A stretch of DNA of 64,000 nt from Catenuloplanes indicus (GTDB taxonomy: Bacteria; Actinomycetota; Actinomycetes; Mycobacteriales; Micromonosporaceae). Of the stretch, positions 18,586 through 62,427 are shown one piece after another. Position 1 is the stretch's first letter, and the number at the start of each line of letters is the position of its first letter. A program made the position numbers and the translations under genes. Location: positions 9,034,501 to 9,098,500 of the forward strand of contig NZ_JAUSUZ010000001.1 of NCBI RefSeq assembly GCF_030813715.1. Direction: 5' to 3'. The notes beneath the pieces were generated by a model. It was not told where the DNA came from. It ran no database searches and worked only from the letters and a program-made list of their open reading frames with translations.

Positions 18586-18799
18586 GTGGTCGATTGTGGT
18601 ACCCCGTGTCCACCGGCCGGCAACTCACCGAAGCAGGCCTCAGGAGCGATTCTGATTGTCATGTAACTGACATATCGCTGAGCGTGTACCGTCAAGCCGT
18701 CCGGAAAGACTTGCCGCTGTCATCGTTCGGCGCCGGGTGGCGCGTTCGCCACCCGCAGCGCGGGTGCGGCGCGCATCCGGCACGACCCCCGGGGGGCCC

Positions 18800-21619
18800 G
18801 TGCTCGTTCTGCTGGTGATTCACGCCGTTGTGGCCGCCGCCGCGCCGTGGCTGGTGCGCGCGATCGGTGGACGTGGTCTCTACCTGGTCGCGCTGGCGCC
18901 CGCGGGTGCCGCGCTCTGGGCCGCGACGCAGACCGGGCGCACCGCCGCCGAGACGATCGAGTGGATCCCGCAGCTCGGGCTGGAGCTGGCGTTCCGGCTG
19001 AACGCGCTGTCCTGGCTGCTGGTGCTGCTGGTCGGCGGCGTCGGCGCGCTGGTGCTGGCCTACTCCGCCCACTACTTCGGCGACCGTGCCGAGCAGGCGC
19101 GGCACGCGGGCCTGCTGGTCGCGTTCGCCGGTGCGATGCTCGGGCTGGTGCTCGCGGACGACCTGCTGCTGCTCTACGTGTTCTGGGAGCTGACCAGCGT
19201 CCTGTCGTACCTGCTGATCGCGAACGACCCGGGCCGGCGGGCCGCCCGCCGCGCGGCCATGCAGGCGCTACTGGTCACCACGCTCGGCGGTCTCGCCATG
19301 CTGGTCGGCATCGTCATGCTCGGCACCGGCACCGGCACGCACCGGTGGTCGCAGCTGGCGCAGGACCCGCCGGCCGGTGCATGGGGCACGGCCGCGGTCG
19401 TGCTGATCCTGGCCGGTGCGCTGGCGAAGTCCGCGATCCTGCCGTTCGGCGCGTGGCTGCCGGCCGCGATGGCCGCACCCACACCGGTCAGCGCGTACCT
19501 GCACGCGGCCGCGATGGTCAAGGCGGGCGTGTTCCTCGTCGCGCTGCTCGCGCCCGCGTTCGCCGGTGTGCTCGCCTGGCAGCTGCTCACGGTCGGCGCC
19601 GGCCTGGCCACGCTCCTGCTGGCCGGCCTCGCCGCACTACGCCAGCACGACCTGAAACTGCTGCTGGCCTACGGTACGGTCAGCCAGCTGGGCCTGCTGG
19701 TCGCCGTGCTGGGCGCCGGCACCCGCGCCGCCGCGCTGGCCGGCCTGACGCTGCTGCTCGCGCACGCGCTGTTCAAGTCCGCGCTGTTCCTCACGGTCGG
19801 CGCGGTCGATCACGCCACCGGCACCCGCGACCTGCGGGCGCTGTCCGGCCTCGGCAAGCGGCTGCCGGTGCTGGCGGTCGCGGCCACGCTCGCGGCCGCG
19901 TCCATGGCCGGTGTGCCGCCGCTGCTCGGCTTCCTCGGCAAGGAGGCGATGTTCGCCGCGTTCGCCACCGGCGAGCCCGCGGACACGCTCGCGCTGATCG
20001 CGATGGTCGCCGGCGCCTCTCTCACGGTCGCCTACAGCCTGCGCTTCCTCTGGGGCGCCTTCGGCACCAAGAACATCGGGACCACCACGACGACGGTCCA
20101 CGCTCCCGGCCCCGGCCTGCTCGCCGCCCCGGTGCTGCTCGGCCTGGTCGGACTCGCGGGCGGCCTGGCCGCGCCGACCGTGGAGCGCGCACTCACCACG
20201 TACCCCCGGGGGCTTGCGGGGTTCGAGGTGCATCTGGCGCTCTGGCACGGGCTGAGCCTGCCGCTGGGACTGACCGTGCTGGCGATCGTGGCGGGCGCGG
20301 GGATCTTCCGGCTCACCCGCGATCGTACCCACGCGGAGGACCGGATCAGCGCCGGCGCCTGGGTCTACGAGCGGTCGCTGCGCGGCGTCGACCGGCTCTC
20401 CGTCGAGCTGACCGGCGCCACCCAGCGCGGTTCGCTGCCCGTGCACCTCGGCGTGATTCTGGTCGTGCTGGTGGTGATCGCCGGGACCGCGCTGGTGGCC
20501 GGCGCACCGTGGCCCACGGACTACCGCGTCTGGGACACGCCGTTGCAGGCGGTCGCCGGGGTCGCGATCGTCGCGGCCGCGATCGGCGCGGTCCGGGCGC
20601 AGCGGCGGCTGGCCGCGTTCGTGCTGGCCGGTGTCGCGGGCTACGCCGTGTCGGTACTGTTCATCCTGCACGGCGCGCCGGATCTGGCGCTCACCCAGGC
20701 GCTGGTCGAGACGGCCAGCATCGTGATGGCCGTGCTGGTGCTGCGCCGGCTGCCGGCGAAGTTCTCCGAGCGTCCGCTGCGCGTCTCCCGGCACTGGCGG
20801 GTCGTGCTCGGCGTGGCGGTCGGGCTGGCCGCGGCCGGGATGGCCTTCGTGGCCGGTGGCGGCCGGGTGGCCGCACCGATCTCGGCGGGCTTCCCGGAGC
20901 TGTCGGTCAGCTACGGCGGCGGCACGAACATCGTGAACGTGATCCTGGTCGACATCCGCGCCTGGGACACGATGGGTGAGATCTCGGTGCTGGTGGTGGC
21001 CGCGACCGGCGTCGCCAGCCTGATCTTCCAGCGCACGTCCGCGCTGCGCCGCCGTGCCGAGACGCCGGCGCCGAAACGGCCGCCGCTGACGGTGTGGACC
21101 GGCAAGGAGGACAGCGTGATCCTTCGGGTCGTCACCCGGCTTATCTTCCACACGATCGTGCTGTTCTCGGTGTACCTGCTGCTCTCCGGCCACAACGCGC
21201 CGGGCGGCGGGTTCGCCGGTGGGCTGGTCGCGGCGCTCGCGCTGACCGTGCGCTACCTGGCCGGCGGGCGCCGCGAGCTGAACCGGGCCGCGCCGGTCGA
21301 CGCGGGCGCGGTGCTCGGCACCGGGCTGCTGATCGCGGTCGGCACCGGCGTGACCGCGATGTTCCTCGGCGGGCAGGTGCTGCAGACCGCGATCGTGGAC
21401 ATCCACGCACCGGTGCTCGGTGACCTGCACGTCGCCACGTCCACGATCTTCGACGTGGGTGTCTACCTGATCGTCATCGGGCTCGTGCTGGACATCCTGC
21501 GCAGCCTCGGTGCGGAGCCGCAGGAGCCGCGGGGGCCGCAGGAGTCACCGCTGGAAGAGGAATCAGATCAAGACGTTGCCCAGCAGCAAGATCAAGATCG
21601 GGAGAAGGTGACCGCGTGA
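18800..21619 (+). CDS. mnhA: Mnh/Mrp Na+/H+ antiporter subunit A, fused to an MnhB domain
   Basis: About 939 residues from the GTG at 18800; the frame is open back to 18737, but the upstream part lacks a membrane segment. This is the large NuoL-like subunit with many transmembrane helices. Conserved proton-path regions are visible, such as FWELTSVLSYLLIAN, GALAKSAILPFGAWLPAAM and APTPVSAYLHAAAMVKAGVF. The C-terminal part carries a DUF4040-like stretch (ILHGAPDLALTQALVETASIV) and then an MnhB domain (VLFSVYLLLSGHNAPGGGFAGG), so subunit B is fused and no separate mnhB exists. The extreme C-terminus is a charged, Gln/Glu/Asp-rich tail. mnhC starts at a GTG overlapping its stop. Confidence 0.95.
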   Translation: MLVLLVIHAVVAAAAPWLVRAIGGRGLYLVALAPAGAALWAATQTGRTAAETIEWIPQLGLELAFRLNALSWLLVLLVGGVGALVLAYSAHYFGDRAEQARHAGLLVAFAGAMLGLVLADDLLLLYVFWELTSVLSYLLIANDPGRRAARRAAMQALLVTTLGGLAMLVGIVMLGTGTGTHRWSQLAQDPPAGAWGTAAVVLILAGALAKSAILPFGAWLPAAMAAPTPVSAYLHAAAMVKAGVFLVALLAPAFAGVLAWQLLTVGAGLATLLLAGLAALRQHDLKLLLAYGTVSQLGLLVAVLGAGTRAAALAGLTLLLAHALFKSALFLTVGAVDHATGTRDLRALSGLGKRLPVLAVAATLAAASMAGVPPLLGFLGKEAMFAAFATGEPADTLALIAMVAGASLTVAYSLRFLWGAFGTKNIGTTTTTVHAPGPGLLAAPVLLGLVGLAGGLAAPTVERALTTYPRGLAGFEVHLALWHGLSLPLGLTVLAIVAGAGIFRLTRDRTHAEDRISAGAWVYERSLRGVDRLSVELTGATQRGSLPVHLGVILVVLVVIAGTALVAGAPWPTDYRVWDTPLQAVAGVAIVAAAIGAVRAQRRLAAFVLAGVAGYAVSVLFILHGAPDLALTQALVETASIVMAVLVLRRLPAKFSERPLRVSRHWRVVLGVAVGLAAAGMAFVAGGGRVAAPISAGFPELSVSYGGGTNIVNVILVDIRAWDTMGEISVLVVAATGVASLIFQRTSALRRRAETPAPKRPPLTVWTGKEDSVILRVVTRLIFHTIVLFSVYLLLSGHNAPGGGFAGGLVAALALTVRYLAGGRRELNRAAPVDAGAVLGTGLLIAVGTGVTAMFLGGQVLQTAIVDIHAPVLGDLHVATSTIFDVGVYLIVIGLVLDILRSLGAEPQEPRGPQESPLEEESDQDVAQQQDQDREKVTA

Positions 21620-59302: not shown

Positions 59303-60179
59303 CTATTGTGCTTCCCTCGCGGTCAGCGAGCTCGGCCAACGGCACCTACCTCAACGATCCGGCGAGCGCCGCGATCCCGCCCGAGATCCCGGTGCCGCTG
59401 CGCGCGGGCGACCGTGTCTACGTTGGAGCGTGGAGCTCAGGTCCACGATGGACCAGGTGCCGCGCTCGCGCAGCAGCAGCGCGTGGGTGTGCGAGACGCC
59501 GGGGTCCTCCGGCGGACCGGTCAGGTCGATGTCCGGGTGGATGCCGCGGGACCGGCTGCGGCGGCCGATCAGCAGCCGCTCGCCGGTCAGCGGAAAACGG
59601 CGCTCCGCGGCGAAGCGCGGGAATACCATGCCACCCGCGTCCGCCCCGCCCTGCGCGACGACACCGTCGAAGTAGGCCCGGTCCGCACCCACCACGATTT
59701 CCAGCCGCCCGGCCTCTGCCTCTGACCCGGCGCCCGCCTCGGTGCCTGCAGCGGCTGCTTCAGCGGTCCTGGAGCGCGCTCGCATGCCGGGGCCCGGTTG
59801 TGCGGCTGCGTTCGGCTGCGCGGCCGCGTTCGGCTGGGCGCCGGGGCCTGGCTGGGCGTCGCGGCCGCCGGCCGCGCCATGGCCGCCGGCCACGCCGGGT
59901 GCCGGCGAGCCCGGCGACACCGGCGGCGCCAGGACGAAGTCATACCCGTCCACCTCGCAGAACCGCCCACCCTGCGGCGTACCGCACCGCGGCACCCGGC
60001 CGGCACCCGCCGAGTCACCTCCGGGTCCGGACTGGCCGGGGGACCACCGGCACCACCGGATCCTCCCGAACTCCCACCGCCGGCGAATCCCGCGCCACGC
60101 CGTGCATCGGCGCACCGCACGTGTCGCAGTAGTCGTGCGTCCCGGAGTCGTGGCCTTTCGGGCAGGTCGCCGTCGTCAT
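59303..60179 (-). pseudogene. FHA-domain protein gene broken by an internal inversion and a frameshift
   Basis: ATG 60179 opens MTTATCPKGHDSGTHDYCDTCG, a zinc ribbon. A run of five G (60038-60042; C on the coding strand) carries one base too many; with four, the frame passes smoothly to RCGTPQGGRFCEVDGYDF (second Cys motif), an Ala/Pro/Gln linker and the FHA domain (LIGRRSRSRGIHPDIDLTGP, DPGVSHTHALLLRERGTWSIVDLSS). At 59438-59433 the frame runs into GAGCTC. The missing rest, NGTYLNDPASAAIPPEIPVP and VYVGAW, lies on the opposite strand up to a second GAGCTC at 59328-59333. Flipping the segment gives DLSSANGTYLND...VGAWSSLTAREAQ and a TAG at 59305-59303. The start overlaps the vWA stop by 4 nt. 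FHA domains bind phosphothreonine. Confidence 0.85.
59328..59438. repeat. Inverted segment bounded by GAGCTC sites
   Basis: The two GAGCTC hexamers at 59328-59333 and 59433-59438 flank 105 bp (centre to centre) whose coding sense is opposite to the surrounding gene. Homology at the ends is limited to the 6 bp palindrome itself; flanking bases differ. Confidence 0.85.
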
Positions 60180-60880
60180 GGCCGTCCTCGGCCCTCTCGC
60201 CGCACCCGGACCGTCTTCGTGGACCGGACGTTGATGATCTCGACGTTCTCGCCGGTTTCCCGCCGCTTCAGCCGTACCGTGCCGGTCCGCGCGTCCTCCA
60301 CGTCGACCACCCGGGCCAGCAGCCTCGCGGTGTCCGTGTGCCCGGTCTCCGCGGCCAGCTGCACCGCGCGGCCCAGCTTCGCGGTCGCGGTCTCCTCGTC
60401 GCCCGCGTCTCGGGCCCGCAGCCCCTCCTGGATCGCCACGGCCAGCTCGGCCTGTCCGGTGTAGTGCGCCACCAGCTCCAGCCAGCGGCCGATCGCGGTG
60501 CCGCCGTTGGCCCACAGCAGGTTCTCCGCCGCCCGGGCCTCGGCGCGGGTGCGCGCGCCCGCGACGACCGTGCCCGGCTCCCGCGGGTACACCATGGTCG
60601 CGGCGCCGTTCCCGGCGATCACCGCGAACGGCGTACCGTCCGGAAGCGTGTCGACCGCGGTGACGGTCGCCTTCTTCGCCTCGGTCATCTTCGTGGCCGG
60701 CGCGGCCATCGACCCGGACACGTCCACGATGATGATCTGCGCGATCCGCCCACCGACCGGTGCCGCCCCACCGGTCGCGGTCACGGTGAGGATCGCGTCC
60801 ACGGTCCGCCCGCCGGCCGGCAGGAACTCGTTCTGATCCACCTCCGCCTCGAACCGCACCCGCCCGCTCTCCTGCACCAT
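60176..60880 (-). CDS. von Willebrand factor A domain protein with an in-frame internal deletion
   Basis: 234 residues. The N-terminal half is a normal vWA protein start (RFEAEVDQNEFLPAGGRTVDAILTVTAT split over strands), with the MIDAS motif IIVDVSGSM and ANGGTAIGRWL. It then jumps directly to VAHYTGQAELAVAIQEGL and the C-terminal region (ARDAGDEETATAKLGRAVQLA, NVRSTKTVRVR). Relatives I know are about 420-430 residues and carry about 190 residues between these points, including the rest of the vWA fold. The frame is kept, so a shortened protein may be made, but a complete vWA domain is impossible. ATG 60880 is used; GTG 60883 is an alternative. Confidence 0.75.
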   Translation of the reverse strand: MVQESGRVRFEAEVDQNEFLPAGGRTVDAILTVTATGGAAPVGGRIAQIIIVDVSGSMAAPATKMTEAKKATVTAVDTLPDGTPFAVIAGNGAATMVYPREPGTVVAGARTRAEARAAENLLWANGGTAIGRWLELVAHYTGQAELAVAIQEGLRARDAGDEETATAKLGRAVQLAAETGHTDTARLLARVVDVEDARTGTVRLKRRETGENVEIINVRSTKTVRVRREGRGRP

Positions 60881-60888
60881 CACGCATC

Positions 60889-61867
60889 TCACCTCTCGCC
60901 GTGGCTTGCCGCTGACGGGATTTCCGTCTCCGGCACGGCCGCGCCCGGCGTGCCGCCGACCGGCAGGACCGCCACCGCGACGTTGTCGTCGCCGCCCGCA
61001 CGTACCGCCAGCGCGGTCAGCCCGCGGGCCAGCGTTGCCGGATCCGCGCCCGGGACCAGCGCCGCGGCCAGCGCCGACGGGGACGGCAGATAGCGGGACA
61101 GGCCGTCCGTGCACGCGACCACGTGCCCGGCCCGTACCGCCCGGGAGTGCCGGACCTGCGGCGCCGCCTCGCCCGCGTCCGCGCCGAGCCAGCGCACCAG
61201 TGCCCGCGAGCCCGGGTCCACGTCCGTCAGCCCGGCCGGGACCGCCCGCCCGGCCTCCCGGATCGCCGCGATCGAGTCGTCCACGGTCAGCTGCTGCACG
61301 TCGCCGTCCACGCCCACCCAGTAGGCGCGGCTGTCACCCACCCAGCCCACGGCCACCCCGTCCGCCGCCACCACCACGGACACGTAGGTACAGCCCGGCG
61401 GCGCGTCCCCGTCCTCGTCCCGCCCGGTGTCCGCGGCCGCGCGGGCCGCGGCCGACGCCGCGTGCCGGGTCGCCGTGGGCCCGTCGGCGCCGCGCACCAG
61501 CGCCTCCAGCAGTGCGGACACGCCCGCCTCGGCCGCGCCTACCGCGGCCACGTCCGCGCGCCGGGCGGTGGAGATCCCGTCACAGAACCACCGCCACCAC
61601 CGCGTCACCGGCACGTCCGACCGCGACCGCGTCCTCGTTGTGCCGCCGCCGCGCCCGATCGGTCACCGCCGCGACGCCGTCCAGCATCAGCTCGGCCCGC
61701 CCGCGTGCGACGCTGACCCGCCGCCCGCACACACCGCACCAGCCGCCGGCCGCCTCCGCGGCGGCGCCGCACGCGGCACGGATCCCCCGAGTCTCGCGCG
61801 CCGACCGCCACGCCCACCCGTCACCTTTCCCCAGGTCCGGCAAAGCCCACGGGGGTACGGCGCCCAC
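60889..61867 (-). pseudogene. Frameshifted PP2C-type serine/threonine phosphatase
   Basis: The first part, in the frame entering from upstream, has a degenerate zinc ribbon (CGAAAEAAGGWCGVCGRRV) and the PP2C start GVAAVTDRARRRHNEDAVAV. It hits a stop right after AGDAVVAVVL at about 61580. The +1 shifted frame then continues with CDGISTARRADVAAVGAAEA, VGWVGDSRAYWV, RAGHVVACTDGLSRYL and AGGDDNVAVAVL, the remaining PP2C metal-binding motifs. One extra base near 61585 separates VVAVV from CDGIS. The original start is uncertain; GTG 61867 is one candidate. PP2C would remove phosphates placed by a Ser/Thr kinase; no kinase is in the window. Confidence 0.8.
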
Positions 61868-61925
61868 GTCCTTGCCGCTCCTGACGGGTTGCCGGGCGGC
61901 CCCGTCCACGCCGGGCGCGCTCGTC

Positions 61926-62273
61926 TCACCGCCACGCCCGGCAGGGTTCTCCGGGCGGGTCTCCCGGGGCCGGCCGCCGCCTGCCGCCGGCACCCGCTCG
62001 CCGGCGGACCACGGTCGCGGGACGGGCCCCGGGAACGCATCGGCCCGGTGCGTGCTCTCCTCGCCGGGTCGCGGGCGCGGTCCTGGCCGCGGCAACGTGC
62101 CGGTCCGGCGCCGGCCCTCGTCGCCGGGTCGCGGGCGCGGGCGGGACTTCGGGAGCCGCGGCCAGGCCGGCCAGCAGCGCGAGCATGATCAGCGCGGTCA
62201 TCCACAGCGCGAGCCGGCCGGGCGTGTGCCGCAGTCCGGCCGTGAGCCGTTCCCGGGGTGGACTCTCCGTCAT
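61926..62273 (-). pseudogene. N-terminal fragment of a membrane protein
   Basis: MTESPPRERLTAGLRHTPGR followed by a membrane helix (LALWMTALIMLALLAGLAAA) matches the N-terminus of membrane proteins found next to kinase/PP2C/vWA/FHA operons in actinomycetes. After about 45 residues the frame becomes Arg/Pro/Ala-rich without resemblance to any domain and runs into the PP2C remnant. I read it as a gene truncated by deletion. An ATG two codons earlier (62279) is possible. Confidence 0.5.
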
Positions 62274-62427
62274 CACCATGGCCTCGGCCCCCTCGCTCGG
62301 TCGCATTCACGGCAGAAACCGTGTTCAACAGTGAGCGGAGCGTGATCGTGGCTGTGCGTCCGTACCTGATGGGGTGTGCAGCCCGGTTGGCGCGAGCGTG
62401 ACCGCACCAGGCATGATCGGTGACACC

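Follow-up and report, generated by a model that had tools for sequence, protein, structure and literature searches.

The FHA gene and its inverted segment

The window, meaning the whole stretch of 64,000 nucleotides that was analysed (G000:C1:9034501-9098500), belongs to the 9.25-Mb, two-contig genome of Catenuloplanes indicus, and it was compared with four genomes of the same genus (G001-G004), all of which hold the orthologous region. What was once the last gene of a cluster survives as an FHA pseudogene on the minus strand at 59303-60179, with its start codon region at 60179 and its old stop at 59303-59305. The two GAGCTC hexamers that the first-pass annotation had placed within it are found at 59328-59333 and 59433-59438. 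The minus-strand reading IVDLSS breaks at the second of these, and the missing part of the protein (ANGTYLND...GAW) is read from the plus strand between the two hexamers. It is the last third of the FHA domain, on its C-terminal side, that stands on the wrong strand (59330-59434, plus strand). Within the longest open piece of the gene, Pfam FHA matches profile positions 2-41 of 67 only.

Comparison of the window with the four genus genomes by blastn gives one opposite-strand match nested inside a collinear alignment, ungapped and 84-86% identical. In three of the genomes the match covers 59330-59434 (105 bp), in the remaining one 59335-59434 (100 bp), which bears out the earlier claim of a segment of about 105 bp inverted in a minus-strand FHA gene. 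Aligned with G004, the segment reaches 84% identity when inverted and 56% when collinear; its self-complementarity is 57%. The genus relatives read IVDLGSANGTYVND...GAWTSL across the joints, with a run-on to a stop in G001, G003 and G004. The joints of G001 and G003 read IVDLGSANGTYVND...GAWTSLTVREAQ-stop, the G004 reading ends GAWTSLTVRNTQ-stop at the joint position, and the joints of G002 read DLGSANGTYVND...GAWTSL.

The comparison with orthologues of related genomes, proposed earlier as a check, gives the same answer. In 98 of 98 related loci (the window's own locus, L078, being excluded) tblastn aligns the segment in direct orientation, at an identity to G004 of at least 0.34 (median 0.5) and free of stops in 97; the arrangement of the window, an inverted copy, occurs in none. 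As it stands, the window segment has an identity to G004 of 0.22 and contains a stop. The key Asn-Gly and Trp residues are kept without a stop in 90 of the loci, with a substitution there in seven and a stop in one (L051). In the search that gathered the related loci, the best named matches among those listed are Micromonospora and Virgisporangium records. As in a microinversion, the segment matches the relatives only as its reverse complement, and this state is the derived one; judged by these alignments, the inversion is real and arose in the window relative to its kin. The FHA orthologue of Fodinicola feengrottensis (L051) has a frame break and is the sole exception among the 98 loci tested.

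Flipping the segment had been said to restore the reading in frame. The flip does regain the reading across both joints, but two frame breaks further upstream (59990-60110, minus strand) stay in place. These are seen in a three-frame translation compared visually with G001, G003 and G004, each of which has one open frame. From the native start at 60179 up to the FHA domain, the homologous residues move through each of the three minus frames. One holds the cysteine-rich start, a second a short linker, and the third the stretch from CGTPQGGRFCEVDGYDF onward. With the segment flipped back the native start is still unconnected to the FHA domain, and a working gene is not recovered, although a shortened protein could begin at an internal start. 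The two frame breaks are independent of the inversion downstream of them.

Decay of the surrounding PknG cluster

The order of the cluster in the relatives is glnX, a gene for a GlnH-like binding protein, a third gene, pknG, PP2C, VWA and FHA, as assembled from G003 and G004, with G001 and G002 showing it only in part. GlnX is named by NF058618 (390.9 bits for the G004 protein, cut-off 250), and the third gene, 427 aa in G003, has no family match. The other labels are PF00497 (GlnH-like), PF16918 PknG_TPR, PF13672 PP2C_2, PF13519 VWA_2 and PF00498 FHA. Published work links PknG, GlnX and GlnH with an FHA substrate (PMC8546545) and presents a glnX-glnH-pknG signalling cluster whose FHA substrate is OdhI/GarA (PMC8546545, PMC9769921, PMC6069109). 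The relatives' cluster resembles that system in holding GlnX, a GlnH-like binding protein, PknG with its TPR region and an FHA protein. It differs in its added PP2C and VWA genes and in an FHA protein that is not OdhI: the G004 copy fails the cut-off of the OdhI/GarA family NF041660, at 41.4 bits against 200. This cluster FHA protein would be a partner of PknG. In the window, unlike the published system, the cluster is wrecked, and a separate OdhI remains in the genome.

The orthologous cluster is intact in the relatives and carries several lesions in the window, the pattern of a decayed cluster. The VWA-domain gene (60176-60880, minus strand) has a frame-keeping deletion of 597 bp at 60472-60477; its VWA_2 score is 25.8 bits (cut-off 27), compared with 45.8 for the G004 copy. 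Despite the deletion it retains an open frame of 312 aa, and on the strength of that frame it may still make a protein. The 597-bp deletion is in none of the four genus relatives. The PP2C phosphatase gene (60889-62095, minus strand) has a frame break near 61580-61614 and reads as two overlapping ORFs, versus one in G003 and G004. A large deletion has left a scar at 61941-62155 (coordinates from the G004 comparison), where the relatives have approximately 5.9-6.9 kb: the interval stands for about 6.6 kb of G004, and similar short intervals stand for about 6.9 kb in the comparison with G003 and 5.9 kb in those with G001 and G002. Most of glnX, glnH, the third gene (in G003) and pknG are lost at the scar, and probably the start of PP2C as well. 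What remains of glnX (62196-62279, minus strand) is its first 28-30 residues, with 7% of the relatives' protein matched.

These losses are not made good elsewhere in the genome by any close copy found with our queries. The C-terminal TPR region of PknG has no match anywhere in the window's own genome. The kinase region of G004, used as a query, finds at best 34% identity there and 79-86% in G001-G003, and the own-genome matches to the GlnH-like protein are 37% identical or weaker. Each of the four genus relatives has a PknG TPR match, and such matches occur in 50 of the 101 genomes searched. The FHA query has matches in 78 of 150 genomes, the window's own included, some of them weak and possibly other FHA genes. 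An FHA match accompanies the TPR match in 45 of the 50 genomes and is missing from five; the two lie within 4 kb of each other in 42 of the 45 and on different contigs in three. Given this proximity, joint loss of the two makes sense. A second, diverged PknG-like kinase (~44-46% identical) is encoded at G003:C1:3193038 and G004:C1:9123559; the window's own genome has no match as strong as these.

Substitutions between the window and G003 number 7, 3 and 16 at the first, second and third codon positions of the FHA domain, and 5, 1 and 10 in the inverted piece. This third-position bias resembles that seen in comparisons among the intact relatives, and so the decay must be recent. The codon pattern suggests that the FHA gene was under selection until recently, which fits a recent loss but would be expected equally of a switch or of an error in the assembly.

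The GAGCTC hexamers and the breakpoints

The inverted repeat at the ends of the segment is 6 bp only, without outward extension, and the GAGCTC pair thus provides the short edge repeat of a microinversion. When breakpoints 105 bp apart were placed at random (200,000 draws in 464 kb of the window's own genome), inverted identity of at least 6 bases occurred at a frequency of 0.0046. The pair is therefore more than chance, and short homology probably took part in the inversion. A close parallel is provided by human-chimpanzee microinversions, every one of which has inverted repeats at its ends, 3-75 nt long and in half of the cases 4-8 nt; template switching or break repair is proposed for them (PMC8755829). 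A 6-bp repeat fits within this range. The FHA inversion shares with them a reverse-complement segment, the short inverted repeat that borders it and a single derived event. It departs from them in its length (105 bp, compared with the 17-33 nt given there), in its bacterial host and in its repeat, a 6-bp palindrome that is missing from the joints of the relatives read.

The joints could be read by regular expression in 45 of the 98 related loci, orientation being taken from tblastn in all 98. None of these 45 relatives has GAGCTC at either joint, and all 45 have TGGAC at the right joint (the Thr codon after Trp). The hexamers may therefore be products of the event. By this account an unclean inversion or a template switch would have made them, and the two palindromes would be identical in part by coincidence or through conversion by template switching. 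An earlier GAGCTC at the right joint would have required altering a codon that does not otherwise vary, the left joint is without the hexamer in every relative read, and template switching is said to turn imperfect inverted repeats perfect (PMC8755829). But identical 6-bp repeats at both joints, with a chance of ~0.005, favor a role for short homology. We consider that the hexamers are quite possibly a product, though somewhat more readily a cause, and this weighting applies as a share within the explanation preferred below. When clean reciprocal breakpoints are placed by hand within the hexamers, every one of them leaves a sequence that differs from the G003 state at three bases; parsimony therefore leaves the exact exchange point unfixed.

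Origin of the inversion

The inversion is very probably a fixed, lineage-specific microinversion inside a recent pseudogene, and not an ON/OFF switch. Of the three readings offered by the first-pass annotation, it is the second, a fixed inactivating inversion, that fits best. In this lineage a large deletion has taken away the kinase and sensor genes of a PknG-type cluster, PP2C and VWA have been damaged, and the FHA gene has gained its two frame breaks and the 105-bp inversion. The sequence itself shows the deletions, the frame breaks, the inversion and its derived state; the order of events, the repair route and the lack of switching are inferred. The inversion most likely came about once, through a slip of copying or repair at very short inverted repeats, for which a template switch or microhomology-mediated break repair is a candidate route. 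It would have been tolerated since the pathway had by then failed or was failing, and no switching would be involved. Among the titles listed on invertons, on microinversions and on PknG/von Willebrand factor/FHA/phosphatase in Actinoplanes, none names this locus; the one on the last subject is, to judge from its title and the opening of its abstract, a survey of kinase domains.

The possibility that the chromosome is really in direct order, and that the inversion is an artefact of assembly or of the library at two SacI sites, is unlikely. Both joints carry GAGCTC, the SacI site, and the segment still shows unbroken coding constraint, as an artefact would have it. Lesions of several kinds nevertheless cluster here, and most of the remaining window is clean, which disfavors the assembly or cloning error suggested earlier. 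To gauge frame integrity across the window, GC3-filtered ORFs of the relatives served as queries. Among 88 from G004, 43 were matched above 60% identity, and 37 of these 43 are full length in one frame (coverage of at least 0.96), which counters an error-rich assembly; this test detects frame breaks, and a tblastn match can bridge a small inversion, as it does in the window's own FHA gene. The six that are not intact comprise one running off the window edge, three in the cluster (glnX, VWA and FHA), G004_102690 with a frame change and gaps, and one covered to 84%. With G003 as the source of queries, 32 of 78 were matched; G003_87503 (121 aa), outside the cluster, is spread over several frames and is possibly no true gene. 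At 18682-21616 the window aligns with a 1074-aa gene of G004, with a gap of ~100 residues and a frame change near the start.

SacI artefacts would also have had other places to arise. There are 96 GAGCTC in the 464 kb, with seven adjacent pairs within 200 bp (the FHA pair included), yet the aligned part holds no other clear inversion. This survey set 464 kb of the window's own genome (the window together with 400 kb flanking it on one side, ~5% of the genome) against 518 kb of G004, with 274,272 bases aligned and with an E-value limit that inversions under roughly 40 bp would escape. Of the four opposite-strand candidates that it yielded, only the FHA segment stands as a clear inversion. Those of 50, 28 and 41 bp were rejected as hairpins, being 80-93% self-complementary and matching at 90-95% when collinear and 84-100% when inverted. 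The 28-bp candidate matches slightly better inverted (100 vs 93%), but it is a near-perfect hairpin and carries little weight. An inversion system specific for GAGCTC was likewise rejected, as no second clear microinversion is found among the 274,272 aligned bases.

A switch, with a recombinase turning the segment over at the GAGCTC sites so that the FHA protein goes on and off, is highly improbable. Intragenic invertons are a known class. The FHA segment resembles them in being small, invertible-looking and intragenic, such that a flip alters the reading; on flipping, the FHA reading is regained across both joints, and coding constraint is still visible in the inverted piece. Against this stand the two upstream frame breaks within the same gene and the deletion of its partner genes (pknG, glnH and most of glnX). 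Described invertons have repeats of 10-40 nt and an invertase (PMC11892184), and their switching is driven by a recombinase (PMC11868660); the FHA segment has 6 bp only, in a host gene that is otherwise broken. A dedicated invertase usually lies nearby. The two families searched for, the resolvase and integrase families PF00239 and PF00589, have no match in the window; elsewhere in the genome they have 3 and 12, one of the 12 PF00589 matches being below its cut-off, and an enzyme of another family or one encoded at a distance may act. GAGCTC is absent from the joints of the 45 relatives read, and none of the 98 loci has an inverted copy. The least credible version, to which we give hardly any weight, is a living micro-inverton at 6-bp palindromes that works without a dedicated recombinase and toggles a shortened, internally started FHA protein in a lineage devoid of PknG.

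As a switch, the FHA inversion would have mattered more. As a microinversion in a bacterium, located nearly to the base and with four same-genus genomes alongside, it is a usable case of short-repeat rearrangement. The locus also marks a genome from which the PknG/GlnH/GlnX cluster was lost naturally and in which OdhI/GarA is retained. The orthologue of the latter, above its family cut-off, is at G000:C1:8123007-8123390 (L178), in this genome without a PknG TPR match.
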